The position numbers and the translations under genes are program-made. From Aurantimicrobium sp. INA4 (GTDB taxonomy: Bacteria > Actinomycetota > Actinomycetes > Actinomycetales > Microbacteriaceae): DNA of 64,000 bases. Location of the stretch: the NCBI RefSeq assembly GCF_027924525.1, contig NZ_AP027040.1:1426001-1490000 (forward strand), read 5' to 3'. Shown piece by piece: positions 23,218 to 50,958 of the stretch. A model generated the notes under the pieces. The model was not told the DNA's origin. It saw nothing but the letters and a program-made list of their open reading frames with translations, and ran no database searches. Position 1 is the first letter of the stretch. Each line of letters opens with the position of its first letter.

Positions 23218-24783
23218 TTATTTGAAGCCGAGTATCTGCTCACCCCACGCCTTGCGAATATCTCCGTCGGGGTCGTTCTCAATGGAATCTGTCCCGTTAA
23301 TGATGAGGGTCGCACGGGTGGTTTCGTCATAGCGCGGCCAGGTGAGGTCGTGACCGGTTTCTGAATCAACCGTTTGGGGATCAGAGGTTCTGGCAAAACT
23401 GGTCCAACGTGCTTGAATTCGCTGAGAAATAACCCACGCTTCTTTCAGTCCGCCCAACCTAAACTGCAGCGCCTTCTTGTTCATCTTAAGCGGCAGGGTT
23501 CCAAAGACATAGGGCAACTCTGTCGCATGGCTTGCACCAATACCCAGCAGTTTCATGAGGGGTGGTGCCTGGTCGAAGCGATACATCCAGGTGGGGGCCA
23601 CTTTCGAATGAGCTTCTGCAACCCAGACTGAAGGCATTCGGAATCCTGCGTCGCGAGAGATTTCCATCGCACCCTTTTGCTTAGGGAAATCAGGATAAGC
23701 ATCCAGTATTCGTTCTTCGTCGAAGTCTTTGTCTGGATGATCTTTGGACATTAGGTCGAACATTTCCTGAATGCTGGATTCACTAATGGGCATCAGGGGA
23801 GATTTCATCATTTTGAACAATGCAGCTTCGTCTTTGTTCGTTCCGATGATGAGCGGAACTTTGTGTTGCTTTCCGTCGCGGAAAGTTTGCACCGGATAGT
23901 GAGGAACGAATCTTCCGTCAACAATGGGGGCAAAAGCAACCGTTCCCGGCCACGTCAACGAGACGTGGTCGAGCAATTTGGTTGTAAAGGATGCCAACGT
24001 CTTGGCATCGGTTTCACGCAGATACCGAGGGGCGTCTTTTGTGCTCACTCCCATCAACTCGAGATACGCATGCGCAACGAGAGCTGCACGTTCTGGTTTG
24101 TAGACACTGGTGGCTGGTGAACTTTCCGCAATTGCTTTGTGGAAAAGCCCTTTCGCCTCGGGCATTGTCATCAATGTGGTAACACAACCACCACCAGCCG
24201 ATTCACCAAAGAGGGTCACGTCATCAGGATTTCCCCCGAATGCCGCAATGTTGTTTTTCACCCACTGCAACGCGAGCACAAGATCAGTCAGACCCATGTT
24301 GTTCTCGAAACTGGGATCAAGCGAACTGAAATCTAGCCACCCGAGCGCACCGAGTCGATAGTTCACGGTGACGATAATGACATCGCCGTTTTCAGCCAAG
24401 GAACGGCCGTTGTAGACAGCCTGGGATGAAAACCCGATGAAATACGCACCACCGTGAATCCAGACCATGACGGGTTTGGGCTTATCTCCAGGCTTTGGGA
24501 TTGGTGCCCAAATGTTCAGATTGAGACAATCCTCGTCAATCTCAACCCCAGGAGGAATGGGTATGAGCTTGGTTGGCTCCTGTGGTGCAATATTCCCAAA
24601 TTCAAGCGCGTCTCGGGTGCCCTGCCAAGGTTCAACAGGCACAGACCTGCGATAGCGAAAGTCTCCCACGGGGGCTTTACCATAGGGCACACCCAGCCAG
24701 CGGTGTGTGTTTCCATCTTGGGTGCCGCGCACAACACCGGCTGTCGTAGTAACCAAGAGCGAGGGGTCAGAAAAAGCGTCCAT
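23218..24783 (-). CDS. Type B carboxylesterase
   Basis: A 521-residue alpha/beta-hydrolase of the carboxylesterase/lipase B family. It has TTAGVVRGTQDGNTHRWLGVPYGKAPVG at the start, EDCLNLNIWAP, the oxyanion region VMVWIHGGAYFIGFSSQ, the nucleophile elbow TLFGESAGGGCVTTL (Ser about 190-200), a Glu from the GTNKDEAALF region, and a His in GIGASHATELPYVFG. All catalytic residues are present and there is no signal peptide, so it is a cytosolic esterase of unknown substrate. It begins 3 nt after the stop of the upstream hydrolase gene, so the two form an operon. Confidence 0.92.
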   Translation of the reverse strand: MDAFSDPSLLVTTTAGVVRGTQDGNTHRWLGVPYGKAPVGDFRYRRSVPVEPWQGTRDALEFGNIAPQEPTKLIPIPPGVEIDEDCLNLNIWAPIPKPGDKPKPVMVWIHGGAYFIGFSSQAVYNGRSLAENGDVIIVTVNYRLGALGWLDFSSLDPSFENNMGLTDLVLALQWVKNNIAAFGGNPDDVTLFGESAGGGCVTTLMTMPEAKGLFHKAIAESSPATSVYKPERAALVAHAYLELMGVSTKDAPRYLRETDAKTLASFTTKLLDHVSLTWPGTVAFAPIVDGRFVPHYPVQTFRDGKQHKVPLIIGTNKDEAALFKMMKSPLMPISESSIQEMFDLMSKDHPDKDFDEERILDAYPDFPKQKGAMEISRDAGFRMPSVWVAEAHSKVAPTWMYRFDQAPPLMKLLGIGASHATELPYVFGTLPLKMNKKALQFRLGGLKEAWVISQRIQARWTSFARTSDPQTVDSETGHDLTWPRYDETTRATLIINGTDSIENDPDGDIRKAWGEQILGFK

Positions 24784-38598: not shown

Positions 38599-39867
38599 GT
38601 GAAAATCCTGGTTCTTGGCTCCGGTGCCCGCGAGCACGCAATTGTTACCGCATTACTGGCAGAAAACGCTGACCACGAGATTACTGTTGCCCCAGGTAAC
38701 GCCGGTATCGCTTTCGATGTTCCCTGTGTCACCACAGACATCCTCAATCCAGAAGCCGTGGCCTTCCTGGCCGAGGGGCTCGATGTTGATCTTGTTGTGG
38801 TGGGTCCTGAAGCTCCTCTTGTTGCTGGCGTCGCTGACCCACTGCGTGAAATGGGCATCCCCGTCTTCGGCCCCAACCAGGCAGCTGCCGCTTTGGAAGG
38901 TTCAAAAACTTTTGCCAAGCGCATCATGGATGAGGCCGGAGTTCCTACAGGACGTGCAATCAAGGTGTCAACACTGCTTGATGCTGAGACAGCATTGGAT
39001 GACTACGGCGCTCCCTACGTCATCAAAGCGGATGGGCTTGCTGCCGGTAAAGGTGTACTCGTAACCCACGATCGCGAAGCAGCTGTGGCGCACGCCTCCC
39101 ACTACCTCACCCAAGGTTCAGTCCTCATTGAAGAATTCTTGGACGGTCAAGAAGTGTCGCTGTTCATGTTTGCTGATGGCCACGACGTGCTGCCACTTTC
39201 TCCAGCGCAAGATTTCAAGCGCCTCAAAGACAATGATGAAGGCCCCAACACTGGCGGAATGGGCGCCTACTCACCACTTCCGTGGCTGACAGAACAGTTT
39301 GGTAGCGAAGACGCGTTCGTCACCGAAGTGATTGAAACGATTGCTCTACCCACCATCCGCCAGCTCGAGGCTGAAGGAACGCCCTTCCAAGGCTTGCTCT
39401 ACTGCGGACTTATCCTCACCTCCAAAGGAATCCGCGTTATCGAATTCAATGCGCGATTTGGAGACCCAGAAACTCAGGTTGTTCTGCCAAGGCTCAAAAC
39501 TCCACTCTCTGAACTCATGATGGCTTCGGCCACTGGAAGTCTCGCCGGTCGAGAGCGCCCCAAGTTCTCAGATGAAGCAGTCGTCACTGTTGTTCTCGCT
39601 AGCGAGAACTATCCCGAGACTCCCGTTACTGGCAGAGTGTTGACCGGTATTCCTCTGGCAAACGCCGTTGAGGGTGTGCACGTTACCCATGCTGCAACCA
39701 CCGAACAAGATGGTGAGCTCATTGCGACCGGTGGTCGGGTCCTGAGCGTTGTTGGTCGCGGAAAAGACTTTGCAGAGGCACGCTCGCGTGCCTACGAAGG
39801 CTTGTCCAAGATCTCTCTTGAAGGTGGCCAATACCGCACTGATATCGCCAAGAAGGTTGTGAAGTAA
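38599..39867 (+). CDS. purD: Phosphoribosylamine-glycine ligase
   Basis: A 422-residue ATP-grasp enzyme (GTG start) that joins phosphoribosylamine and glycine in the second step of purine synthesis. Features are ILVLGSGAREHAIVTALLAE, VVVGPEAPLVAGVADPLREM, FGPNQAAAALEGSKTFAKR, YVIKADGLAAGKGVLVTHDR, EEFLDGQEVSLFMFADG, and IEFNARFGDPETQVVLPRLK (ATP-grasp metal loop). The purC start overlaps its stop by 1 nt, so the two are cotranslated. TAGGCT sits 6 nt ahead of the start, consistent with a leaderless mRNA. Confidence 0.97.
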   Translation: MKILVLGSGAREHAIVTALLAENADHEITVAPGNAGIAFDVPCVTTDILNPEAVAFLAEGLDVDLVVVGPEAPLVAGVADPLREMGIPVFGPNQAAAALEGSKTFAKRIMDEAGVPTGRAIKVSTLLDAETALDDYGAPYVIKADGLAAGKGVLVTHDREAAVAHASHYLTQGSVLIEEFLDGQEVSLFMFADGHDVLPLSPAQDFKRLKDNDEGPNTGGMGAYSPLPWLTEQFGSEDAFVTEVIETIALPTIRQLEAEGTPFQGLLYCGLILTSKGIRVIEFNARFGDPETQVVLPRLKTPLSELMMASATGSLAGRERPKFSDEAVVTVVLASENYPETPVTGRVLTGIPLANAVEGVHVTHAATTEQDGELIATGGRVLSVVGRGKDFAEARSRAYEGLSKISLEGGQYRTDIAKKVVK

Positions 39868-40754
39868 TGTCCGGTTTCACCGGTGGTCAGAAACTCACCC
39901 TTCCCGGCTGGACTCATGCCTACTCAGGCAAAGTTCGTGACCTGTACGTTCCCCAAGGTGAAACTTTGGAGTCAACGCCTCGAGTGTTGGTTGTTGCGAG
40001 CGATCGTGTCAGCGCATTCGATCACGTGCTCGAACCGGGTATCCCCGGCAAGGGCGAACTGCTCACCACGTTGAGCCTGTGGTGGTTTGATCAGCTTGCT
40101 GTTCCCAATCACCTGCGCGCTGGGGAGATTCCACCAGAGGTTCAGGGCAAGGCAATGCTGGTTGCCAACCTCGATATGTTCCCCGTGGAATGTGTAGTCC
40201 GTGGCTATCTTTCCGGGAGCGGCTATCTCGAGTACCTCGAACACCAAAGTGTGTGTGGAATCCCTTTACCTACTGGTTTGAAAGACGGAGACAAACTCCC
40301 CGAGCCGATTTACACCCCTGCATGGAAAGCGCCATTTGGCGAACACGATGAGAACATCACATTTGAGAGAACTGTGGAACTCATTGGGCTCGAAGACGCT
40401 ACTGCCTTACGCGACCTTTCACTCCAAATCTTCACTCAGGCCAGTGAGCTCGCAGCAGCCAAGGGAATCATCCTGGCTGACACGAAGTTCGAATTTGGTC
40501 GCGACAGAGAAACCGGTGTCATTACTCTCGCTGATGAGGTTCTCACCTCGGACTCCTCTCGTTACTGGGATGCGACCGCTTATGACGCAGGAACTACCCC
40601 TGCAGAGAAGATGACCAGCTTCGATAAGCAGATTGTCCGCAATTGGCTTTCAGCCAATTGGGACAAGCAGGGCACTCCTCCGGTTCTTCCAGAGGAGATT
40701 GTTCAGAAAACTGCCGACCGCTATCGCGAGCTCATCAGCCGGATGCTGGGATAG
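39867..40754 (+). CDS. purC: Phosphoribosylaminoimidazole-succinocarboxamide synthase
   Basis: A 295-residue SAICAR synthetase, the long actinobacterial form. Features are AYSGKVRDLYVPQGE near the start, LVVASDRVSAFDHVLEPGIP, ECVVRGYLSGSGYLEY, IYTPAWKAPFGEHDENITFE, ILADTKFEFGRDRETGVITL with ADEVLTSDSSRYWD next, and KQIVRNWLSANWDK at the C-terminus. It converts CAIR and aspartate to SAICAR. It is coupled to purD by a TAATG overlap. Confidence 0.97.
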   Translation: MSGFTGGQKLTLPGWTHAYSGKVRDLYVPQGETLESTPRVLVVASDRVSAFDHVLEPGIPGKGELLTTLSLWWFDQLAVPNHLRAGEIPPEVQGKAMLVANLDMFPVECVVRGYLSGSGYLEYLEHQSVCGIPLPTGLKDGDKLPEPIYTPAWKAPFGEHDENITFERTVELIGLEDATALRDLSLQIFTQASELAAAKGIILADTKFEFGRDRETGVITLADEVLTSDSSRYWDATAYDAGTTPAEKMTSFDKQIVRNWLSANWDKQGTPPVLPEEIVQKTADRYRELISRMLG

Positions 40755-40801
40755 CCGTAATAATTCTTTGGTGAAGTTTCCCCAACATTGTGCTGTGCGC
40801 C

Positions 40802-40807
40802 TAGCCT
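40802..40807 (+). promoter_or_regulatory. Leaderless-type -10 of the YczE-like gene
   Basis: TAGCCT with exactly 6 nt to the ATG at 40814; no Shine-Dalgarno site. Confidence 0.5.
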
Positions 40808-40813
40808 GAAGTC

Positions 40814-41470
40814 ATGCGCAGATTCATCAACGCCATTTTCGAAGTGCCTCGTAGTGGTGCTCCGATGTGGAAAAGACTGGTGCTGGTAGAAACCGGACTC
40901 ATTATCTGCGGTTTTGCTTTTGCCATAATGTTGCAAGCTGCAATTGGGCTCGACCCCTGGGATGCCTTCCACTTAGGTCTTTCTATCGTCACTGGAGTCT
41001 CAATTGGCCTCGTGGTCGTGATCGTGGGCTTTGCTGTTCTTTTTCTCTGGATTTTCCTCAAACAAAAACTTGGCATTGGAACCATCCTCAACGCCATCAC
41101 TATTGGTATTTCTATTGACCTGTTTATTGCCATCATTCCCAAGGCGCCAGATTTCTGGTGGGGGTTAGGGTATTTCCTCATTGCCATCCTGATAAACGGT
41201 TTAGGCATTTCGATGTATATCGGTGCTGGCCTAGGTCCAGGGCCTCGTGATGGTTTGATGACGGGAATCGTGCGAATTACTGGTCGCCCTATCTGGCTTG
41301 TTCGAACGGCAATTGAAGTCGTCGTGCTGGGGCTTGGCTGGGTGATGGGAGGCGCTGTCGGCTTGGGAACCATCATTTATGCCTTCAGCATTGGCCCCGT
41401 CGTTCACGTGATGTTGCCGTGGTTCAACCTAGACAAAGTGAAAGAACCGGAAGAAGTCGAGGGTCACTAA
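40814..41470 (+). CDS. YczE/YitT-like integral membrane protein
   Basis: A 218-residue membrane protein with about five helices. ICGFAFAIMLQAAIGLDPWD, GISIDLFIAIIPKAPDFWWG, ISMYIGAGLGPGPRDGLMTG and RTAIEVVVLGLGWVMGGAVG, then GLGTIIYAFSIGPVVH, match the YczE (YyaS/YitT-related) family, known in Bacillus as a membrane protein of unknown activity affecting lipopeptide synthesis. It has the GLDPWDAFHLGL and GPGPRDG repeats typical of the internal duplication. Function unknown here. It is not part of the purC transcript by spacing (59 nt) and has its own promoter. Confidence 0.82.
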   Translation: MRRFINAIFEVPRSGAPMWKRLVLVETGLIICGFAFAIMLQAAIGLDPWDAFHLGLSIVTGVSIGLVVVIVGFAVLFLWIFLKQKLGIGTILNAITIGISIDLFIAIIPKAPDFWWGLGYFLIAILINGLGISMYIGAGLGPGPRDGLMTGIVRITGRPIWLVRTAIEVVVLGLGWVMGGAVGLGTIIYAFSIGPVVHVMLPWFNLDKVKEPEEVEGH

Positions 41471-41514
41471 AGCTCCGGCCCGCTCTCGGCAAGCTCATAG
41501 GAAACTTTGAAACA

Positions 41515-42105
41515 ATGAAGGCTATGAATAAGTCATCGCGTGCAGCAGTCGCCGGTTCAAGCCTTCTCATTGGAGCTCTCTTGCTCACTGGATGCTCGAG
41601 TACCGGAATGGCAAATTCAGACGCACACACCATCATGGAGAGTCAGTTAGACACTTCTGTCTACTCCAGTTCTGACATCATGTTTGCGCAAATGATGATT
41701 CCACACCACCAGCAAGCAGTAGACATGTCTACCCTTGCTGAGACCCGCACCACAAACCCAGAAATTCTTGCCCTTGCCCAGCAAATCAAAAACGCTCAAG
41801 CTCCAGAGATACAACAGATGACTGCATGGTTAGAGAGCGCCGGTGCTGGCATGGATATGGGTCATGACATGGGTATGGATGGCATGCTTACTGACGAACA
41901 AATGACGGCGCTCAGCAATGCCACAGGAGCTGACTTCGACAAACTGTATCTTCAAGGAATGATTGCCCACCACGAGGGAGCAATCCAGATGGCCCAAATG
42001 ATTGTTGGTTCCAACAATGCCGAAGCCAAGCAATTAGCTGCGGCAATTATTACAAGCCAGACTGCAGAGATTGAGAAGATGAAAACTCTTCTGGCTGGAA
42101 TGTAA
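41515..42105 (+). CDS. DUF305 lipoprotein (copper-linked four-helix protein)
   Basis: A 196-residue exported protein with signal peptide and lipobox LLTGCSS (Cys about 26). The mature part is a DUF305 domain: FAQMMIPHHQQAVDMSTLAE and LYLQGMIAHHEGAIQMAQMI carry paired His residues, and a Met/His-rich linker (MDMGHDMGMDGM) may bind copper or silver. Members of this ferritin-like group occur in copper stress loci. The frame is open further upstream, but the ATG at 41515 has AGGAAA and begins the signal peptide. Its stop overlaps the copZ start by 1 nt. Confidence 0.9.
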   Translation: MKAMNKSSRAAVAGSSLLIGALLLTGCSSTGMANSDAHTIMESQLDTSVYSSSDIMFAQMMIPHHQQAVDMSTLAETRTTNPEILALAQQIKNAQAPEIQQMTAWLESAGAGMDMGHDMGMDGMLTDEQMTALSNATGADFDKLYLQGMIAHHEGAIQMAQMIVGSNNAEAKQLAAAIITSQTAEIEKMKTLLAGM

Positions 42106-42317
42106 TGACTACGTCCCTTTACACGGTCACTGGGATGACATGCCAGCACTGTGTGGCAAGCGTTACGAGTGAAGTCAGCCAACTCTCCCACGTCACCTCT
42201 GTTGACGTTGACCTTCCCACTGGAAGAGTCACGGTGGAAAGCGATGCCCCCATCCCTGCTGACGACGTTGTCGCCGCCATTGATAAGGCTGGCTATCCGG
42301 CAGTCGCTACTGTCTAG
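42105..42317 (+). CDS. copZ: Heavy-metal-associated domain protein (CopZ-like copper chaperone)
   Basis: A 70-residue ferredoxin-like metal-binding domain: YTVTGMTCQHCVASVTSEVS with the CxxC pair Cys13/Cys16, then VTSVDVDLPTGRVTVESD and the end DKAGYPAV. It resembles CopZ chaperones that hand Cu+ to a P-type ATPase or a regulator. No ATPase is adjacent, so the partner is elsewhere or is the DUF305 lipoprotein with which it is translationally coupled. Its TAG stop shares the CTAG palindrome with the stop of the convergent glucosidase gene. Confidence 0.92.
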   Translation: MTTSLYTVTGMTCQHCVASVTSEVSQLSHVTSVDVDLPTGRVTVESDAPIPADDVVAAIDKAGYPAVATV

Positions 42318-43951
42318 TTCTTCACCGTGACAAAAGCTTGCCACGGAGCAAGCACGTCAGACTTCACACCGAGAACAGCATCGCCCGATACTGATTCTGG
42401 AAGCTCCACTGTGTCATTAGACAAGTTGGCAACCACCGTTAGAACCTGCCCGTTGAGTTTACGTTCATAGGCAAAGAGGTGCTCGTGTTCAATCCAGAGC
42501 ATGTCGAAGGAGCCATTGACCACCACATCCATGCCGTGACGCATTGCGATGAGTTTTTGGTAGTGATGGAAGACCGAGTCGGCATCCGCAACTGCTCCCG
42601 CCGCATTGATCTCGGGGTAGTTGGTGTTCACCGAGATCCAAGGTTCACCTGAGCTGAAACCTGCGTTAGGTGAGTCGTCCCACTGCATCGGTGTGCGAGC
42701 GTTGTCGCGACCCTTGTAGCCGACCGCTTTGAGAACGTAGTCCTCAGTAATCCCCATTGAGGATGCCTCTGCTGCCCAGTTAAGAGTCTCGAGGTCTCGG
42801 TATTGGCTCAGCTTGGTGAAGTGAGCATTGGTCATGCCGATCTCTTCACCCTGATACACATACGGCGTTCCACGCATCAAGTGCAGCACGGTCCCGAAAG
42901 CTTTCGCAGAGTTCACCCGGTGCTCAGTTGAGTCGTTACCCCAACGCGAAACAATGCGCGGCTGGTCGTGGTTGTTCCAATATAAAGAGTTCCAACCGAC
43001 CTGCTCCAAACCTTTCTGCCATTTGTTTAGGTTCTCTTTAAGTGCCTTGACAGAGAATGGAGCAAGATCCCATTTCCCGAATCCATCTGGGTTCGTATCC
43101 AGATTCATGTGCTCGAACGTGAACACCATGTTGACCTCATGGCGTTCGGGAGCGGTGTATTCCTGGGCTAACTGTATGGTGCAACCAGGCATCTCGCCAA
43201 CGGTAATCAATCCCTTGTCACGAAGGACCTCGCGATTCATTTCTTGCAAGAATTCGTGAATACGTGGACCGTTCATCCAAGGCCCAAACAAGCCCTCTGC
43301 ATCAGAGAAGTCCTGACGTTTTGAAATGAGATTAATCACATCCATGCGGAATCCATCAACGCCTTGCTCAAGCCACCAATTCATCATTGAATAAACGGCG
43401 GCTCTGACATCTGGATTTTCCCAGTTCAGGTCAGGTTGCTTCTTGGAGAAGATGTGTAGGAAGTATTGCTGGGTGTTTTCGTCCCACTGCCAGGCAGATC
43501 CAGAGAATGCTGATTGATGGGATGTGGGCTCGCGGCCGTCGACAGCGTCGCGCCAGATATACCAATCTCGCTTGGGGTTATCCAGAGAAGATGAGCTCTC
43601 CACAAACCAGGGGTGCTCATCGGAGGTGTGGTTGACCACGAGATCCATCACGAGCTTCATGCCGCGGGCATGGGTCTCGTTGATGAGGTGGCGCATGTCT
43701 TCGAGCGTGCCGAAGAGGGGATCAATGTCTTGGTAGTCCGAGATGTCATAGCCGTTGTCATCTTGAGGGGACTTGTAGACAGGGGAAAGCCAGAGGACAT
43801 CAACACCGAGGTCAGCAAGGTAGTCCAGCTTGGAAGTGATACCAGGGATATCCCCGATGCCGTCGCCGTTCGAGTCAGCGAACGATCGAGGGTAGATCTG
43901 GTACACAACGGCACCCTTCCACCAGTCATCTTTACCTAGGGTGATGCTCAT
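42314..43951 (-). CDS. GH13 alpha-glucosidase / oligo-1,6-glucosidase (GH13_31-like)
   Basis: A 545-residue GH13 hydrolase, a paralogue of the enzyme at 8703. It begins DDWWKGAVVYQIYPRSFADS. Catalytic regions are VMDLVVNHTSDEHPWF, GFRMDVINLISKRQD with the nucleophile Asp, TVGEMPGCTIQ with the acid/base Glu, and YWNNHDQPRIVSRWG. The MDVINLI and GEMPG segments are those of GH13_31 alpha-1,6/1,4-glucosidases. The frame continues upstream to 44104, but the ATG at 43951 has AAGGAG and is the family start. Probably cytosolic, acting on imported isomalto- or malto-oligosaccharides or sucrose. Confidence 0.93.
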   Translation of the reverse strand: MSITLGKDDWWKGAVVYQIYPRSFADSNGDGIGDIPGITSKLDYLADLGVDVLWLSPVYKSPQDDNGYDISDYQDIDPLFGTLEDMRHLINETHARGMKLVMDLVVNHTSDEHPWFVESSSSLDNPKRDWYIWRDAVDGREPTSHQSAFSGSAWQWDENTQQYFLHIFSKKQPDLNWENPDVRAAVYSMMNWWLEQGVDGFRMDVINLISKRQDFSDAEGLFGPWMNGPRIHEFLQEMNREVLRDKGLITVGEMPGCTIQLAQEYTAPERHEVNMVFTFEHMNLDTNPDGFGKWDLAPFSVKALKENLNKWQKGLEQVGWNSLYWNNHDQPRIVSRWGNDSTEHRVNSAKAFGTVLHLMRGTPYVYQGEEIGMTNAHFTKLSQYRDLETLNWAAEASSMGITEDYVLKAVGYKGRDNARTPMQWDDSPNAGFSSGEPWISVNTNYPEINAAGAVADADSVFHHYQKLIAMRHGMDVVVNGSFDMLWIEHEHLFAYERKLNGQVLTVVANLSNDTVELPESVSGDAVLGVKSDVLAPWQAFVTVKN

Positions 43952-44082
43952 GTGTCTCCTTCTTGTCTCAACAATCAACTGTATTGGTGTGTGGGACTTC
44001 AGAAACTTTTTTCTCACCAACACTGACGAAGAAACACCTCTTCTGGCTAGGGTAAATGAGTTCCCAGAAGGAGGTTCCACAC

Positions 44083-44931
44083 ATGGGTGTTGAAAACAAC
44101 ACACGCGACATTGAAGAAACTGTCGTCACCGACTTCACAGACCGGATGAGTTACGGCGGCTATCTCGATCTAGAGACTCTGCTTTCTGCGCAAAAGCCGC
44201 TGAGCGATCACCACGATGAGTTGCTGTTTATCATTCAGCACCAAACCACCGAATTGTGGATGAAGTTGATGGTGCATGAACTCATCGGGGCAGCAAACTA
44301 TCTGCGTAGTGACGATTTGGGCCAGGCACTCAAATGCATTGCCCGCCTCAAGCACATCCAAAAGACACTCACTGAACAATGGTCTGTCCTGGCTACGTTG
44401 ACCCCCAGTGAATATGCACAATTTCGTGACCGTTTGGGTAACTCCAGCGGATTCCAATCCCACCAATACCGCGCCATTGAATTCATGCTGGGTAACAAAA
44501 ACGAGAAGATGATCAAAGTCTTTGACGCAGACCCTGAAGCTCAAGCACTTCTCGTAACTGCATTGAATGCTCCCACCATCTATGACGAGTTCCTGCGATA
44601 CCTCTCTCGTCGCGGATATGCCATCCCTGATGACGTACTCAACCGCGACGTCACCAAAGCTTGGGTGTTCTCCGAGGATTTACTGTCAGTGTTTATCACG
44701 ATCTATAACGAGCACGAAGAACACTGGGAAGCCTACGAAACCTGCGAAGAACTTGTGGACTTAGAAGAAAACTTCCAGTTCTGGCGCTTCCGTCACCTGC
44801 GCACGGTGCAGCGCATCATTGGAATGAAGATGGGTACCGGCGGAAGCTCAGGTGCTCCTTTCTTACAAAAAGCTCTCGAACTGACGTTCTTTCCTGAACT
44901 CTTTGCCGTGCGCACTGAGATCGGAAAGTAG
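44083..44931 (+). CDS. kynA: Tryptophan 2,3-dioxygenase
   Basis: A 282-residue haem dioxygenase that opens tryptophan to N-formylkynurenine. Features are MSYGGYLDLETLLSAQKPLS, DHHDELLFIIQHQTTELWMK, the SSGFQSHQYRAIEFMLGNKN segment and FWRFRHLRTVQRIIGMKMGT, with GGSSGAPFLQKAL next. The haem-ligand His lies in FRHLRTVQR. The ATG at 44083 has AAGGAGG 8 nt ahead; a start 27 nt upstream is possible but lacks that site. It is first in a three-gene tryptophan catabolic operon. Confidence 0.97.
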   Translation: MGVENNTRDIEETVVTDFTDRMSYGGYLDLETLLSAQKPLSDHHDELLFIIQHQTTELWMKLMVHELIGAANYLRSDDLGQALKCIARLKHIQKTLTEQWSVLATLTPSEYAQFRDRLGNSSGFQSHQYRAIEFMLGNKNEKMIKVFDADPEAQALLVTALNAPTIYDEFLRYLSRRGYAIPDDVLNRDVTKAWVFSEDLLSVFITIYNEHEEHWEAYETCEELVDLEENFQFWRFRHLRTVQRIIGMKMGTGGSSGAPFLQKALELTFFPELFAVRTEIGK

Positions 44932-44940
44932 CACTCCTTC

Positions 44941-45879
44941 ATGAGCTCTGCTTCACAGAAACCTGGCAACCCCTATGGGGTTGGGGTTTCTGTGCGCCTG
45001 GCATCCGGCGAGCGCGGAACATTGTTTCCCTTATTTGGTGATGCCCACGTTCACTTAGGACTCATCGAGCCTGAACTTCTTCTTCCCGGAGGAATTGGTC
45101 GCGTGCTCGATCTGGGATGGTCAACGCCTGAGCTGCAAATTTGGGCACACACTATCCCTGGACTCGATGTTGACTTCGCTGGAAACTTCCTCGCGGCCGA
45201 GGGCGGTTACCCTTCCGACCGGTCCTGGGCACCTGCAGGAGCAACGGTATTCGTTGAGAACGCCAGAGACGCGGTTGCTGAACAGGTTGCATCTGGCTCG
45301 AGCGCTATCAAGATCACACTTAATACGGATGCTGGCCCTGTTCACACAGATGAGGTTCTCGCTGAACTTGTTGCTGCGGCAGAAGATGCTGGTCTGCCTG
45401 CTGTTATTCATGCTGAGGGACACGGGCAAGCAGAACGCGCACTTCGCGCAGGCAAAGTTGTTCTCGCACACACTCCTTTCTCTGAGGTACTCACCGATGA
45501 TCTGATTGTTCACGCTGCACAGAACAATTTGGGCTGGATGAGCACCCTCGACATTCATGGCTATGGCGACCACACCCCCGCCTTTGATGTGGTATTGGAG
45601 AACCTGCGCAGGTTCGTTGCTGCTGGCGGAACGGTCTTCTATGGCACCGATTTAGGCAATGGGGCGCTGCCGTTAGGCATCAATGCCCGAGAACTCGCTG
45701 CTCTGGAACTCAGTGGAATGAGCCACGAACAGATTGTTCACTCCCTGAGTTCGTGGTGGAGATCAACTCCTGTTTCCCGGTCAAGTTTTATCTCTGAGAT
45801 GTCAGACAACACCTGTGCAGATTTCAGCACCTGGCTGTGTTCTGCGCGTATCGTCGAAAACACTGAAGTGGAGTCATGA
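44941..45879 (+). CDS. Amidohydrolase-superfamily protein, candidate N-formylkynurenine formamidase
   Basis: A 312-residue metal-dependent hydrolase. Ligands that can be seen are FGDAHVHLGL (HxH, residues about 36-38), SSAIKITLNTDAG with a possible carbamylated Lys, VIHAEGHGQAER (His), VLAHTPFSEV (His) and FYGTDLGNGALPLG with the Asp base. Between kynA (9-nt gap) and kynU (4-nt ATGA overlap) it occupies the slot of the formamidase that makes kynurenine. KynB-type cyclases and the alpha/beta-hydrolase formamidase have quite different motifs, neither seen here. The function is inference from operon position; a different amide bond is possible. Confidence 0.72.
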   Translation: MSSASQKPGNPYGVGVSVRLASGERGTLFPLFGDAHVHLGLIEPELLLPGGIGRVLDLGWSTPELQIWAHTIPGLDVDFAGNFLAAEGGYPSDRSWAPAGATVFVENARDAVAEQVASGSSAIKITLNTDAGPVHTDEVLAELVAAAEDAGLPAVIHAEGHGQAERALRAGKVVLAHTPFSEVLTDDLIVHAAQNNLGWMSTLDIHGYGDHTPAFDVVLENLRRFVAAGGTVFYGTDLGNGALPLGINARELAALELSGMSHEQIVHSLSSWWRSTPVSRSSFISEMSDNTCADFSTWLCSARIVENTEVES

Positions 45880-47126
45880 TGACAAGTTTTGAAACACGTG
45901 CTGAAGAGCTCGATGCAGCTGATCCTTTAGCTGCCCACCGCGCGAAGTTCTTTGGCACCGATGAGGCAACACAGTCTTCAACTCCCGGTATGCCTCTGGC
46001 CTACTTCGATGGCAACTCTCTGGGCCGCCCCATGAGCGCCAGCTTTGACCGCATTGAAGCCTTCCTTCGTCATGACTGGGGAACACGCCTTATTCGAAGC
46101 TGGGACGAGCAGTGGTTGAACCTACCACTCGAACTCGGTAACAAGATTGGTGCTGCTGCTCTCGGTGCTGCACCTGGTCAAACCTTTGTAGGTGACTCAA
46201 CGAGTGTGCTTCTCTACAAGATGGCGCGAGCTGCCATTGCCGCACGCCCAGGTCGCATCGAGATCGTGCTCGATACCGATAACTTCCCAACCGATCGCTA
46301 CCTTCTCGAAGGTATCGCTGACGAACTCAACATGACTCTGGTGTGGATTGAGGCTGACACCTCTGCCGGCGTCACGCCTGAACAAGTTGCTGCTGTCGTG
46401 AACTCCAACACCGCTCTGGTGCTTCTCAGCCATGTTGCCTACCGCTCCGGCTTTATGGCGGATGCTCCTGCAATCACAAAGATCACCCACGACGCTGGCG
46501 CATTGATTGTGTGGGACCTGAGCCACTCGGTGGGTTCTGTCGTAGTCGAACTAGATAAGTGGAATGTCGACATCGCCGTGGGCTGTTCGTATAAGTACCT
46601 CTGCGGCGGCCCGGGTGCTCCTGCCTGGGCGTATGTGCGCAAAGACCTACAGACCAAGATTGAACAGCCCATTCAGGGTTGGTGGGGAACCAAGAACATG
46701 TTTCTGATGGGTCCTGGCTATGACCCTGAGAACGACCTGCGCCGCTTCATAACCGGCACCACTCCCGTCGTGGGTATGCAGGCCATGATTGACCCTGTTG
46801 AACTCATCGGAGAAGTCAGCATTGAAGCAATTCGTGCTAAGTCCCTGCTGCTGACACAGTTCGTCATCGACTACACCGACGAAGTGCTAGCGCCAATGGG
46901 GGTGACCGTGGCAACGCCACGCGACCCCGCCCAGCGTGGTGGCCATGTCACGTTGAACCACCCCCACATGCGTGACATAAATGCGTTGCTGTGGAAGGAA
47001 GACATCATTCCCGACTACCGTGATCCGCACGGATTACGCATCGGATTGTCGCCGCTGACAACTTCTTTCCACGAAGTCTTCCTCGGCATGGAGAAGGTCA
47101 AGGAGACACTGCTCTCCCTCCGATAG
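45876..47126 (+). CDS. kynU: Kynureninase
   Basis: A 416-residue PLP enzyme that splits kynurenine to anthranilate and alanine (3-hydroxykynurenine if present). Features are PLAYFDGNSLGRPM, FVGDSTSVLLYKMARAAIAA, VLLSHVAYRSGFMADAPAIT, IVWDLSHSVGSVVVELDKWN, the PLP Lys in VGCSYKYLCGGPGAPAWAYV, and QPIQGWWGTKNMFLMGPGY. The start overlaps the amidohydrolase stop by 4 nt, so translation is coupled. No kynurenine 3-monooxygenase or anthranilate-degrading gene is present here, so anthranilate would feed tryptophan synthesis or leave the cell. Confidence 0.97.
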   Translation: MMTSFETRAEELDAADPLAAHRAKFFGTDEATQSSTPGMPLAYFDGNSLGRPMSASFDRIEAFLRHDWGTRLIRSWDEQWLNLPLELGNKIGAAALGAAPGQTFVGDSTSVLLYKMARAAIAARPGRIEIVLDTDNFPTDRYLLEGIADELNMTLVWIEADTSAGVTPEQVAAVVNSNTALVLLSHVAYRSGFMADAPAITKITHDAGALIVWDLSHSVGSVVVELDKWNVDIAVGCSYKYLCGGPGAPAWAYVRKDLQTKIEQPIQGWWGTKNMFLMGPGYDPENDLRRFITGTTPVVGMQAMIDPVELIGEVSIEAIRAKSLLLTQFVIDYTDEVLAPMGVTVATPRDPAQRGGHVTLNHPHMRDINALLWKEDIIPDYRDPHGLRIGLSPLTTSFHEVFLGMEKVKETLLSLR

Positions 47127-47170
47127 GATTGAGGTAATCCCTTACTCGCGAAATCGCTGGAGTCGCCCCC

Positions 47171-47419
47171 ATGCCCACCATCGTTGTCGAGGTAATGCCC
47201 AAGGCTGAAATTCTTGACCCACAGGGCAAGGCAGTCGCTGGCGCTCTTACCCGCCTAGGTCACAACCAATTCACCGGTGTTCGCATCGGAAAGCGCTTCG
47301 AGCTCACCGTTGACGGTCCCGTCACCGCTGAAACTCTTGAGGCCGTCAAGACCATCGCAGAGGACATCCTCTCGAACTCGGTCATCGAAGATGTCGTCAG
47401 CATCTCCGAGGCCAAGTAA
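47171..47419 (+). CDS. purS: FGAM synthase subunit PurS
   Basis: An 82-residue PurS subunit. It reads IVVEVMPKAEILDPQGKAVA, GALTRLGHNQFTGVRIGKRF, and VKTIAEDILSNSVIEDVVSI. PurS joins PurQ and PurL in the actinobacterial and Bacillus-type three-part FGAM synthase of purine synthesis. Its stop overlaps the purQ start by 1 nt (TAATG). A CTGGAG sequence lies about 9 nt ahead of the ATG. Confidence 0.96.
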   Translation: MPTIVVEVMPKAEILDPQGKAVAGALTRLGHNQFTGVRIGKRFELTVDGPVTAETLEAVKTIAEDILSNSVIEDVVSISEAK

Positions 47420-48120
47420 TGCGCGTCGGAGTTATTACCTTCCCCGGCTCACTCGATGAGCGTGACGCGCAGCGTGCGGTAAAGCTCGCGGGTGGAACAC
47501 CTGTTGCCCTGTGGCACGGAGCGCATGACCTTGAGGGCGTGGAAGCCATCATTCTTCCCGGCGGTTTCAGCTACGGCGACTATCTGCGTGCAGGTTCAAT
47601 TGCCAGTCACGCCCCCATCATGGCTGAAGTCATCGATGCAGCTCACAAGGGTATGCCCGTGCTCGGTATTTGTAACGGATTCCAGATGCTTGCTGAAGCT
47701 CGCTTGGTTCCCGGTGCTCACACCCGCAATGACTGCCAGACTTTCGTTCGCCGCGATCAAAAGCTCATCGTGGAGAACAACAACACAGCGTGGACGAAAG
47801 ACTTCGCCCAGGGTGAAGAAATCATCATTCCGCTGAAGAACGCAGACGGTCGTTTCGTCGCTGACGCTGACACCATCAAGCGCATCGAAGACAACGGTCA
47901 GGTGACCTTCCGCTATGTCGGCGTGAACCCCAACGGTTCCATCGATGACATTGCCGGTGTTTCAAACGAAGCTGGCAACGTGGTTGGTTTGATGCCTCAC
48001 CCCGAGCACGCAGTGGAGCCAGGCTTTGGCCCCGACACCGCGGTAGCAATGCGCTCAGGACTGGATGGGCTCAAATTCTTTACCTCCGTCATCCAAAGCA
48101 CCATCCTGTCCAAGGCATAA
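47419..48120 (+). CDS. purQ: FGAM synthase glutaminase subunit PurQ
   Basis: A 233-residue class I glutamine amidotransferase. VGVITFPGSLDERDAQRAVK at the start, IILPGGFSYGDYLRAGSIAS, the nucleophile elbow PVLGICNGFQMLAEARLVPG (Cys about 90), and the His/Glu pair in MPHPEHAVEPGFG complete the catalytic set. It supplies ammonia to PurL. Coupled to purS upstream. Confidence 0.97.
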   Translation: MRVGVITFPGSLDERDAQRAVKLAGGTPVALWHGAHDLEGVEAIILPGGFSYGDYLRAGSIASHAPIMAEVIDAAHKGMPVLGICNGFQMLAEARLVPGAHTRNDCQTFVRRDQKLIVENNNTAWTKDFAQGEEIIIPLKNADGRFVADADTIKRIEDNGQVTFRYVGVNPNGSIDDIAGVSNEAGNVVGLMPHPEHAVEPGFGPDTAVAMRSGLDGLKFFTSVIQSTILSKA

Positions 48121-48125
48121 GCCTC

Positions 48126-48617
48126 GTGAACGCAGTAAACACAGCACACGCCCCGGGATTTACTCCCCGCAAGCTCTACTTTGTACTTGCCATTGCGGAA
48201 GCATGCACCTGGACACTGTTGATCACTGGCTTGATCTTGCGAGCCACCACCGGCATTGACCAAACCTTATTCACCACCATCGGTGGCCTGCACGGTTTCG
48301 TCTTTATTGCCTATGGCGCAACCTCCATCCTCATCGCCTTCAACCAGCGCTGGGGATTCTGGATGGGTTTGCTTGCCGTGATTACCGCGATCTTGCCCTA
48401 TGCCACTATCCCTTTCGAACTTGTTCAAGCCAAGCGCGGAGCACTCGAAGGGCCCTGGCGCCGTGAGGCAACGGACGATCCTCGTGATGCCCGTCCGTTG
48501 GATCGACTTTTCCGTTGGTTCTTGAACCACCCGATTTTGTTGATACTGGTCATTGTTCTAGCGATTGTCGCCGTCTTCACAACTTTGCTCATCATCGGTC
48601 CTCCCGGGGGACGCTAA
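48126..48617 (+). CDS. DUF3817 membrane protein within the pur operon
   Basis: A 163-residue membrane protein with a GTG start. Its core is ARKL-like [60 protein letters not shown] and the polar [18 protein letters not shown], which matches the DUF3817 family. A further C-terminal helix ([20 protein letters not shown]) ends it. Function unknown. It sits 5 nt after purQ and 49 nt before purL, hence cotranscribed with the FGAM synthase genes. Confidence 0.85.
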
Positions 48618-48666
48618 AGATAATGAGCACTCTCACTTTTCCCACCCACATGAAGGGACTTCACGC

Positions 48667-50958
48667 GTGAGCAACCACGTCGCCGACACCGTAGAGAACG
48701 CCATCGCAACACCCGACAAGGTTCAGCCCTACGGCGCCCTTGGTCTCAAGGATGACGAGTACGCCAAGATTCGTGAAATCCTCGGACGCCGTCCCACCTC
48801 TGGTGAGCTGGCGATGTATTCGGTGATGTGGAGTGAACACTGCTCTTACAAATCTTCGAAGATTTACCTTCGCCAGTTTGGCCAGAAGGTCAGCGAGAAG
48901 ATGAAAGAAAAGCTCATGGTCGGCATGGGCGAGAACGCCGGTGTTGTCGATGTCGGAGAGGGCTGGGCTGTCACCTTCAAAGTAGAAAGCCACAACCACC
49001 CCAGCTACATCGAGCCCTTCCAGGGCGCTGCCACAGGTGTGGGTGGAATCGTCCGTGACATCATCTCGATGGGTGCACGTCCCGTGGCAGTGATGGACCA
49101 GTTACGTTTTGGTGCCATTGACCACCCTGACACTCCTCGTGTACTCCACGGTGTTGTCGGAGGTATTAGCTTCTATGGGAACTGCCTTGGTCTTCCCAAC
49201 ATTGGTGGCGAGACCTACTTCGACTCTTGCTACCAGGGCAACCCGCTCGTAAACGCGCTTTCTGTTGGTGTGCTGCGTCACGAAGACCTTCACCTCGCTA
49301 ACGCTTCTGGTGTGGGCAACAAGATTGTTCTCTTCGGTGCACGCACCGGTGGAGACGGTATTGGTGGCGCATCGATTCTTGCCTCTGACTCCTTCGATTC
49401 CACCGGACCAACCAAGCGTCCTGCAGTTCAAGTTGGTGACCCCTTCGCTGAGAAGGTGCTCATCGAGTGCTGTCTTGAGCTATACCGTGAAGGCCTCGTT
49501 GAAGGTATTCAAGACCTCGGTGCTGCTGGTATTTCCTGTGCAACAAGCGAACTTGCTTCTAATGGTGACGGTGGCATGTTTGTTGAACTCGACAATGTTC
49601 TCCTGCGCGACCCCACCCTCACCGCGGAAGAAATCCTCATGTCAGAGAGCCAGGAGCGCATGATGGCTGTGGTCAAGCCTGAGCTGCTGGATCAATTCAT
49701 GGCTGTCGTCAACAAGTGGGATGTGGAAACCAGTGTTCTCGGTGAAGTGACCGACACCGGTCGCCTCGTGATCCACCACGGTGGCGAAGAAATCGTGAAC
49801 GTGGACCCTCGCACCGTCGCTATTGACGGTCCCGTCTATGAACGTCCCGTTACTTACCCCGCATGGATTGATGCACTGCAGGCTGATTCAGCTGACAAGC
49901 TGACTCGTCCCACAACAGGTGCAGAGCTGAAGGACCAGTTCTTGAAGCTTGTTGCCAGCCCCAACCTGGCGGACAAGTCACTCATCACCACCCAATATGA
50001 CTACTTCGTGATGGGTAACACGGCACTGAGCTTCCCTGACGACGCCGGCATGATTCGCGTCGATGAAGAGTCTGGCCTTGGCTTTGCTATCGCCACCGAT
50101 GCCAACGGTCGCTACTGCCAGCTTGACCCCTATAACGGTGCTCGTCTAGCTCTCGCAGAGGCCTACCGCAACGTTGCTGTCTCCGGTGCTGTTCCTGCAG
50201 CTGTCACTGACTGCCTCAACTTTGGCTCTCCCGAGAACCCCGAAGTGATGTGGCAGTTCAAGCAAGCTGTAGCTGGTCTGGCAGATGGGTGTTTGGAGCT
50301 CGAGATCCCTGTCACGGGTGGAAACGTCTCCTTCTATAACCAGACCGGTGATGCCCCCATCCACCCCACTCCAGTTGTGGGAGTGCTGGGTGTCATTGAC
50401 GATGTTGCCCGTCGTATTCCTTCCGCATGGCAGGACGAAGGCAACAACATCTACCTCCTGGGTTACACCCGCACCGAACTTGATGGTTCGGCCTGGGCTG
50501 GCACCATCCACAACCACCTCGGTGGTGTTCCACCTGTTGTTGACCTGGCTCAAGAAAAAGAGTTGGCGGATCTCCTGCAAGGTGCTGCTATCGAGAGCTT
50601 GATTCTTTCTGCCCACGACCTCAGTGATGGTGGTCTGGGGCAGGCATTGGCGGAGTCTGTGATGCGCTTTGGTGTTGGTGCTCGCGTCTGGCTCGATGAA
50701 ATCATCGAGCGTGACGGTGTTGACGCCGCTACTGCGCTGTTCTCTGAATCAACAGGTCGTGTGATTGTTTCTGTTCCTCGCGAAGACGACGTTCGATTCT
50801 TAGGACTGTGTGAAGCACGCAACTACCCTGTTTTGCGTATCGGTGTTACCGACCAAGGTGGGGCAGATGCCAAGCTTGACGTTCAAGGACTGTTCGAAGT
50901 CTCTGTCGAGGAAATTAGACAACGCAGTAACGAGACCCTGCCAAAATACTTTGGCTAA
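48667..50958 (+). CDS. purL: FGAM synthase subunit PurL (small type)
   Basis: A 763-residue large subunit of the three-part FGAM synthase. Features are [100 protein letters not shown], and in the second half [32 protein letters not shown] [17 protein letters not shown], and [20 protein letters not shown]. The GTG at 48667 is chosen because it gives the family N-terminus; the frame is open about 100 nt farther upstream. A GAAGGGA lies just ahead. Confidence 0.97.

Follow-up and report, generated by a model that had tools for sequence, protein, structure and literature searches.

The window, the whole 64,000-nucleotide stretch analysed, comes from the complete 1.58 Mb genome of Aurantimicrobium sp. 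INA4 (contig NZ_AP027040.1, positions 1,426,001 to 1,490,000). At issue within it is a trio of closely packed genes in which an amidohydrolase-superfamily protein, here termed AH, is encoded between tryptophan 2,3-dioxygenase (TDO) and kynureninase, and is probably the formamidase that acts on N-formylkynurenine. The three genes are as follows.

44056..44931, plus strand: kynA, encoding TDO, identified with TIGR03036 and PF03301; the true start may be downstream of the listed ATG.
44941..45879, plus strand: AH, amidohydrolase-superfamily protein and candidate N-formylkynurenine formamidase, identified from family alignments, an AlphaFold model and gene linkage.
45876..47126, plus strand: kynU, encoding kynureninase, identified with KYNU_C and TIGR01814.

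The AH open reading frame (ORF; 312 amino acids, ATG start, TGA stop) begins at 44941, after a 9-nucleotide gap from the kynA stop codon (TAG, 44929-44931), and its own stop codon (45877-45879) forms an ATGA overlap with the kynU ATG at 45876, which is the coupling that an earlier note on this DNA had described. For kynA the TIGR03036 score of 399.7 bits exceeds the cut-off of 390.7; for kynU the Pfam KYNU_C score of 85 bits exceeds its cut-off of 27, and the TIGR01814 score of 222.4 bits is below the cut-off of 246.4.

Among the annotations listed, proteins of the AH family go only by ‘amidohydrolase’, ‘hypothetical protein’ and the like. With Pfam PF01979 (Amidohydro_1) AH scores 23.6 bits, the gathering cut-off being 25, and 12 of 20 relatives match that profile at E <= 1e-3; with the Xaa-Pro dipeptidase profile NF051886 it scores 22.7 bits, against a curated cut-off of 500, and all 20 members of set A1 match (best E 1e-15). 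Function as an imidazolonepropionase or Xaa-Pro dipeptidase was considered and rejected, given the weakness of this similarity and the unfitting gene context. The AlphaFold model, at a pLDDT (predicted local distance difference test) of 95, has an amidohydrolase barrel fold resembling solved members, of which, by model and profiles together, the Xaa-Pro/arginine carboxypeptidases and ochratoxin amidases are nearest. A C-terminal frameshift, suggested by the unusual look of the tail, was also dismissed: the end, WL..ARIVE, aligns with relatives. In a 97-sequence family alignment the motif D34-x-H36-x-H38 has an invariant D34 (97/97), and the predicted metal-site residues that follow are close to invariant.

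45046..45054, plus strand: codons of H36-x-H38, whose two histidines, after strand 1, are predicted to bind metal (97/97 and 96/97 rows), in alignment with DxHxH in solved enzymes.
45310..45312, plus strand: codon of K124, the lysine predicted to be carboxylated and bridging (97/97 rows), aligned with solved enzymes.
45409..45411, plus strand: codon of H157, predicted metal ligand (97/97 rows), aligned with solved enzymes.
45469..45471, plus strand: codon of H177, predicted metal ligand (96/97 rows), aligned with solved enzymes.
45649..45651, plus strand: codon of D237, predicted to bind metal and to serve as general acid/base (97/97 rows), aligned with solved enzymes.

The earlier note had picked out just such a set (HxH, a lysine, two histidines and an aspartate) and had proposed structure prediction for the metal site, and both the ligand set and the confident model speak in its favor. 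Its further statement that the motif sets of both established formamidase types are missing from AH also holds: at E <= 1 neither Pfam nor NCBIfam gives a match to a cyclase (the KynB type, TIGR03035/PF04199) or to an alpha/beta-hydrolase, and AH has no GxSxG.

Linkage to the genes of kynurenine metabolism is the other major component of the evidence. A scan of named genomes with two conserved family peptide patterns returned 422 matched stretches, 377 of them encoding relatives, and the best 80 of the 377 were analysed in stretches of at most 13 kb from genomes of at least 1.6 Mb. There, kynA is upstream and kynU downstream of AH at 61 of the 80 loci, kynU is the only one of the two present at 17 and kynA at one (L033, where a contig end cuts kynA), and a single locus (L077) has neither; one or both thus flank AH in 79/80, in stretches that make up little of each genome. 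Among eight genomes of the genus, AH, TDO and kynU are all present in the same seven, adjacent in each, and the eighth (G002) is devoid of all three. Among 72,556 plasmid records, the sole family match is in Embleya (Streptomycetaceae), again in the order kynA-AH-kynU. Of 296 genomes sampled from the class, 160 give a family-profile match at E <= 1e-3, in most cases a weak one. Linkage is seen in every one of the best 14 (E <= 1.4e-75, counting the window's own genome): 12 have both genes beside AH, one has kynU (L092) and one kynA (L097), with the kynA and kynU matches of one locus (L099) each in two pieces. The next six (E 3e-51 to 3e-44) are unlinked within flanks of at most 1.5 kb. The neighborhood survey that the earlier note had suggested therefore reveals a tight association. 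In the two loci with kynA and AH and no adjacent kynU, L097 and L033, kynU is elsewhere in the genome.

A FastTree tree separates 90 tips (drawn from L008-L101, the unlinked L077 included) from 14 others with support of 1.0; of the 110 loci that were its input, four were dropped as too short (L035, L074, L110, L114) and two as identical to others (L019, L089). Alignment positions 128 and 160 set the kyn-linked clade apart, as checked in 21 of 94 loci. A separate clade of related amidohydrolases, L102-L107, shares the metal ligands, has E at position 128 and lacks kyn neighbors within the stretch examined.

No KynB was evident elsewhere in the window genome, and that candidate, for which the earlier note had advised a search, was accordingly set aside. 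PF04199 finds nothing there (8/14 control genomes match, 7/14 over the cut-off), and neither does TIGR03035, which 149 of the 296 class genomes match at E <= 1e-3; the TIGR03035 cut-off itself is reached by 0/296 class genomes and 0/14 controls, and so is without a positive control.

Gene order, conservation, the predicted fold, ligand conservation and a genome search that turned up nothing of the KynB type are the basis for reading AH as an amidohydrolase-superfamily enzyme that uses metal to hydrolyse N-formyl-L-kynurenine, a formamidase without homology to either KynB or the alpha/beta-hydrolase type; this reading is given a probability of roughly 0.8. The substrate, metal identity, metal number and catalytic steps are inferred. 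By analogy with the superfamily, TDO would produce N-formylkynurenine and AH would hold a pair of divalent metals with carboxylated K124 and a hydroxide as bridges, the ligands being H36, H38, K124, H157, H177 and D237. The metal-held hydroxide would attack the formyl carbon of the formanilide bond, D237 as acid/base would protonate the leaving aniline, formate and L-kynurenine would be released, and kynureninase would then yield anthranilate and alanine.

Several considerations weigh against this reading. The metal ligands are common to unlinked relatives, and so do not fix the substrate. The loci are not independent: close relatives were sampled, a few sequences are counted in more than one set, L018 and L019 come from a single genome, Cryobacterium contributes many loci, and three Aurantimicrobium loci duplicate genomes of the genus set. 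L077, with AH next to neither gene, is from a genome with no TDO match. Two alpha/beta-hydrolases of the window genome, dealt with below, could promiscuously deformylate N-formylkynurenine. A close AH match is present in 14 of the 296 class genomes vs TDO in 185, the 14 being included in the 185; most TDO genomes thus have no close AH, and other formamidase solutions must therefore exist. Of the 17 loci without a neighboring kynA, whole-genome searches detected TDO elsewhere in five, and for the other 12 (seven Microbacterium and five Frigoribacterium: L028, L038, L048, L060, L061, L070, L072, L079, L080, L082, L084 and L086) no TDO match was found genome-wide, in genomes of unstated completeness. 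AH beside kynU in the absence of TDO implies either another source of substrate or a wider role for the enzyme. As to another source, an IDO search gave matches in 0/14 genomes, with the controls equally silent.

One such wider role is salvage: AH would hydrolyse other N-acyl or conjugated kynurenines, or related amides of exogenous origin, to supply kynureninase, and N-formylkynurenine would be one substrate among several. The 12 AH-kynU genomes with no TDO match are in keeping with this, as is the cleavage of peptides, N-acyl amino acids and ochratoxin by the nearest solved relatives. Nevertheless, it is unlikely, since AH comes and goes with TDO both across the genus and among the sampled genomes of the window's taxonomic family (of 14 such genomes in the class sample, 11 have AH and TDO and three have neither, with a kynureninase match in one of the three, G190, and none in G128 and G249), and since the window genome has no other dedicated formamidase that could be seen.

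A reversal of steps, with kynureninase cleaving N-formylkynurenine and AH then deformylating N-formylanthranilate, has in its favor that AH tracks kynU (downstream in 78/80) more than kynA (upstream in 62/80), and that the AH-kynU pair is kept where TDO has no match. Input of N-formylkynurenine would still be required, however, and the kynA-AH-kynU order of the 61 loci, together with the two kynA-AH loci whose kynU is at a distance, counts against it. So does a Nocardioides locus, L039, where AH is followed by a divergent kynU (31% identity), a flavin adenine dinucleotide (FAD) monooxygenase, whose best model is VioC at a score under the cut-off, and a 2-hydroxymuconic semialdehyde dehydrogenase, whose model is over the cut-off: kynurenine monooxygenases act on free kynurenine. 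Reversal is consequently very unlikely. A dihydroxy-acid dehydratase is upstream of AH in L039, TDO is elsewhere in the genome, and the gene set looks like an aminomuconate-type route. This order gives the AH family a second genomic tie to kynurenine metabolism, in an arrangement with a different kynureninase. L039, L020 and L050 alike have AH with a divergent kynureninase and then two ORFs that are of similar size in all three.

The search for an alpha/beta-hydrolase formamidase that the earlier note had also advised is less clear-cut than that for KynB. Two proteins of the broad BD-FAE/Abhydrolase_3 type are present in the window genome, with BD-FAE scores of 103.9 bits in a 349-amino-acid frame and 42.8 bits in a 522-amino-acid frame (domain at about 24076-24501 of the window, minus strand). 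Matches occur in similar-sized frames, 522-577 amino acids for the latter, in 8/8 genomes of the genus, including the kyn-less G002, and these hydrolases therefore do not track the pathway. That one of them is the formamidase and AH is functionally unrelated, a notion to which the two matches, a BD-FAE protein after kynU in the actinomycete locus L130 and an annotated alpha/beta hydrolase beside kynA, on the opposite strand, of an Arthrobacter plasmid (L146) lend something, is highly improbable given the occurrence of similar matches in G002, which is without kynA and kynU, the location of both outside the kyn operon and the conserved AH linkage that would be left unexplained.

Whether another formamidase takes the same slot in other Actinomycetes was examined in 20 selected TDO regions of TDO-positive genomes, and in most of them none was located. 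AH matches are in 0/20 and kynU in 10/20. Where one neighboring ORF was scanned at each of 10 of these loci, one (that of L130) is an alpha/beta-hydrolase and three have no Pfam match. From annotation, a Rhodococcus plasmid (L145) carries kynA-kynU without any gene named as a formamidase, and the Arthrobacter plasmid has, besides the hydrolase mentioned, a further amidohydrolase nearby on the opposite strand. The broader proposition, that the formamidase represented by AH is a third, independently evolved class in many Actinomycetes, and that TDO-less Microbacterium and Frigoribacterium scavenge extracellular N-formylkynurenine, e.g. from photo-oxidised tryptophan, is tentative, its chances being put somewhat short of even.

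The surroundings of the operon merit mention. It is embedded in a putative purine-synthesis neighborhood (purC, a purS-like gene, purQ and purL) at 39867-50958 of the window. Within the stretch around AH, purQ matches occur in 37/80 and purC matches in 27/80 family loci. Formate from the formamidase could supply purine formylation, or the operon position could be merely inherited. A scan of 43900-47450 gave no promoter-like sites and five terminator-like sites vs 3.3 expected.

If AH is the formamidase, the kynurenine pathway of a group of environmental Actinomycetes gains its missing second step, a third unrelated fold joins those already known to have reached this one reaction from separate ancestries, and AH offers a simple assay target. 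In the parts of the sources drawn upon here and below, two non-orthologous enzymes are named for the formamidase step (PMC4217691), AFMID is named for it (PMC13151070) and cyclase-type enzymes are placed at it (PMC10608976, PMC5341072). The earlier note's suggestion of a third, undescribed class is supported with respect to a third type, and ‘undescribed’ is to be tempered: in 2018 an amidohydrolase, MyeD/MymD, was put forward as the enzyme that cleaves the N-formylkynurenine amide in mycemycin biosynthesis, and mycemycins A and B were lost when myeD was deleted, the role being proposed without an enzyme assay in the parts of the report consulted (PMC5867642). Like AH, MyeD/MymD is an annotated amidohydrolase with the same proposed step; it differs in that MymD has 513 amino acids and belongs to a secondary-metabolite cluster (PMC5867642). 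In the open-licence literature searched no other amidohydrolase proposed for the step was found besides MyeD/MymD. Tar16 of taromycin is reportedly a characterised kynurenine formamidase.

With KynB, AH shares the slot in the pathway and, by prediction, metal-dependent amide hydrolysis at a binuclear site, such as KynB has, and KynB was itself described as a new amidase fold matching no known amidase or amidohydrolase and unrelated to the eukaryotic enzymes (PMC4243253, in the part consulted). The two are unrelated in sequence, AH having no match to the cyclase family (TIGR03035/PF04199). With the eukaryotic-type arylformamidase the likeness is in the presumed reaction, with the BD-FAE protein after kynU in L130 as a further parallel; that enzyme is an alpha/beta hydrolase with a catalytic serine vs the predicted metal site of AH. 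The group of Xaa-Pro dipeptidase, arginine carboxypeptidase and ochratoxin amidase is alike in fold and metal-ligand set. Its identity to AH is about 16-24% (structure alignments, rows 1-17), its chains are of about 380-440 amino acids vs the 312 of AH, which has little before the barrel, and only the AH side is kyn-linked.
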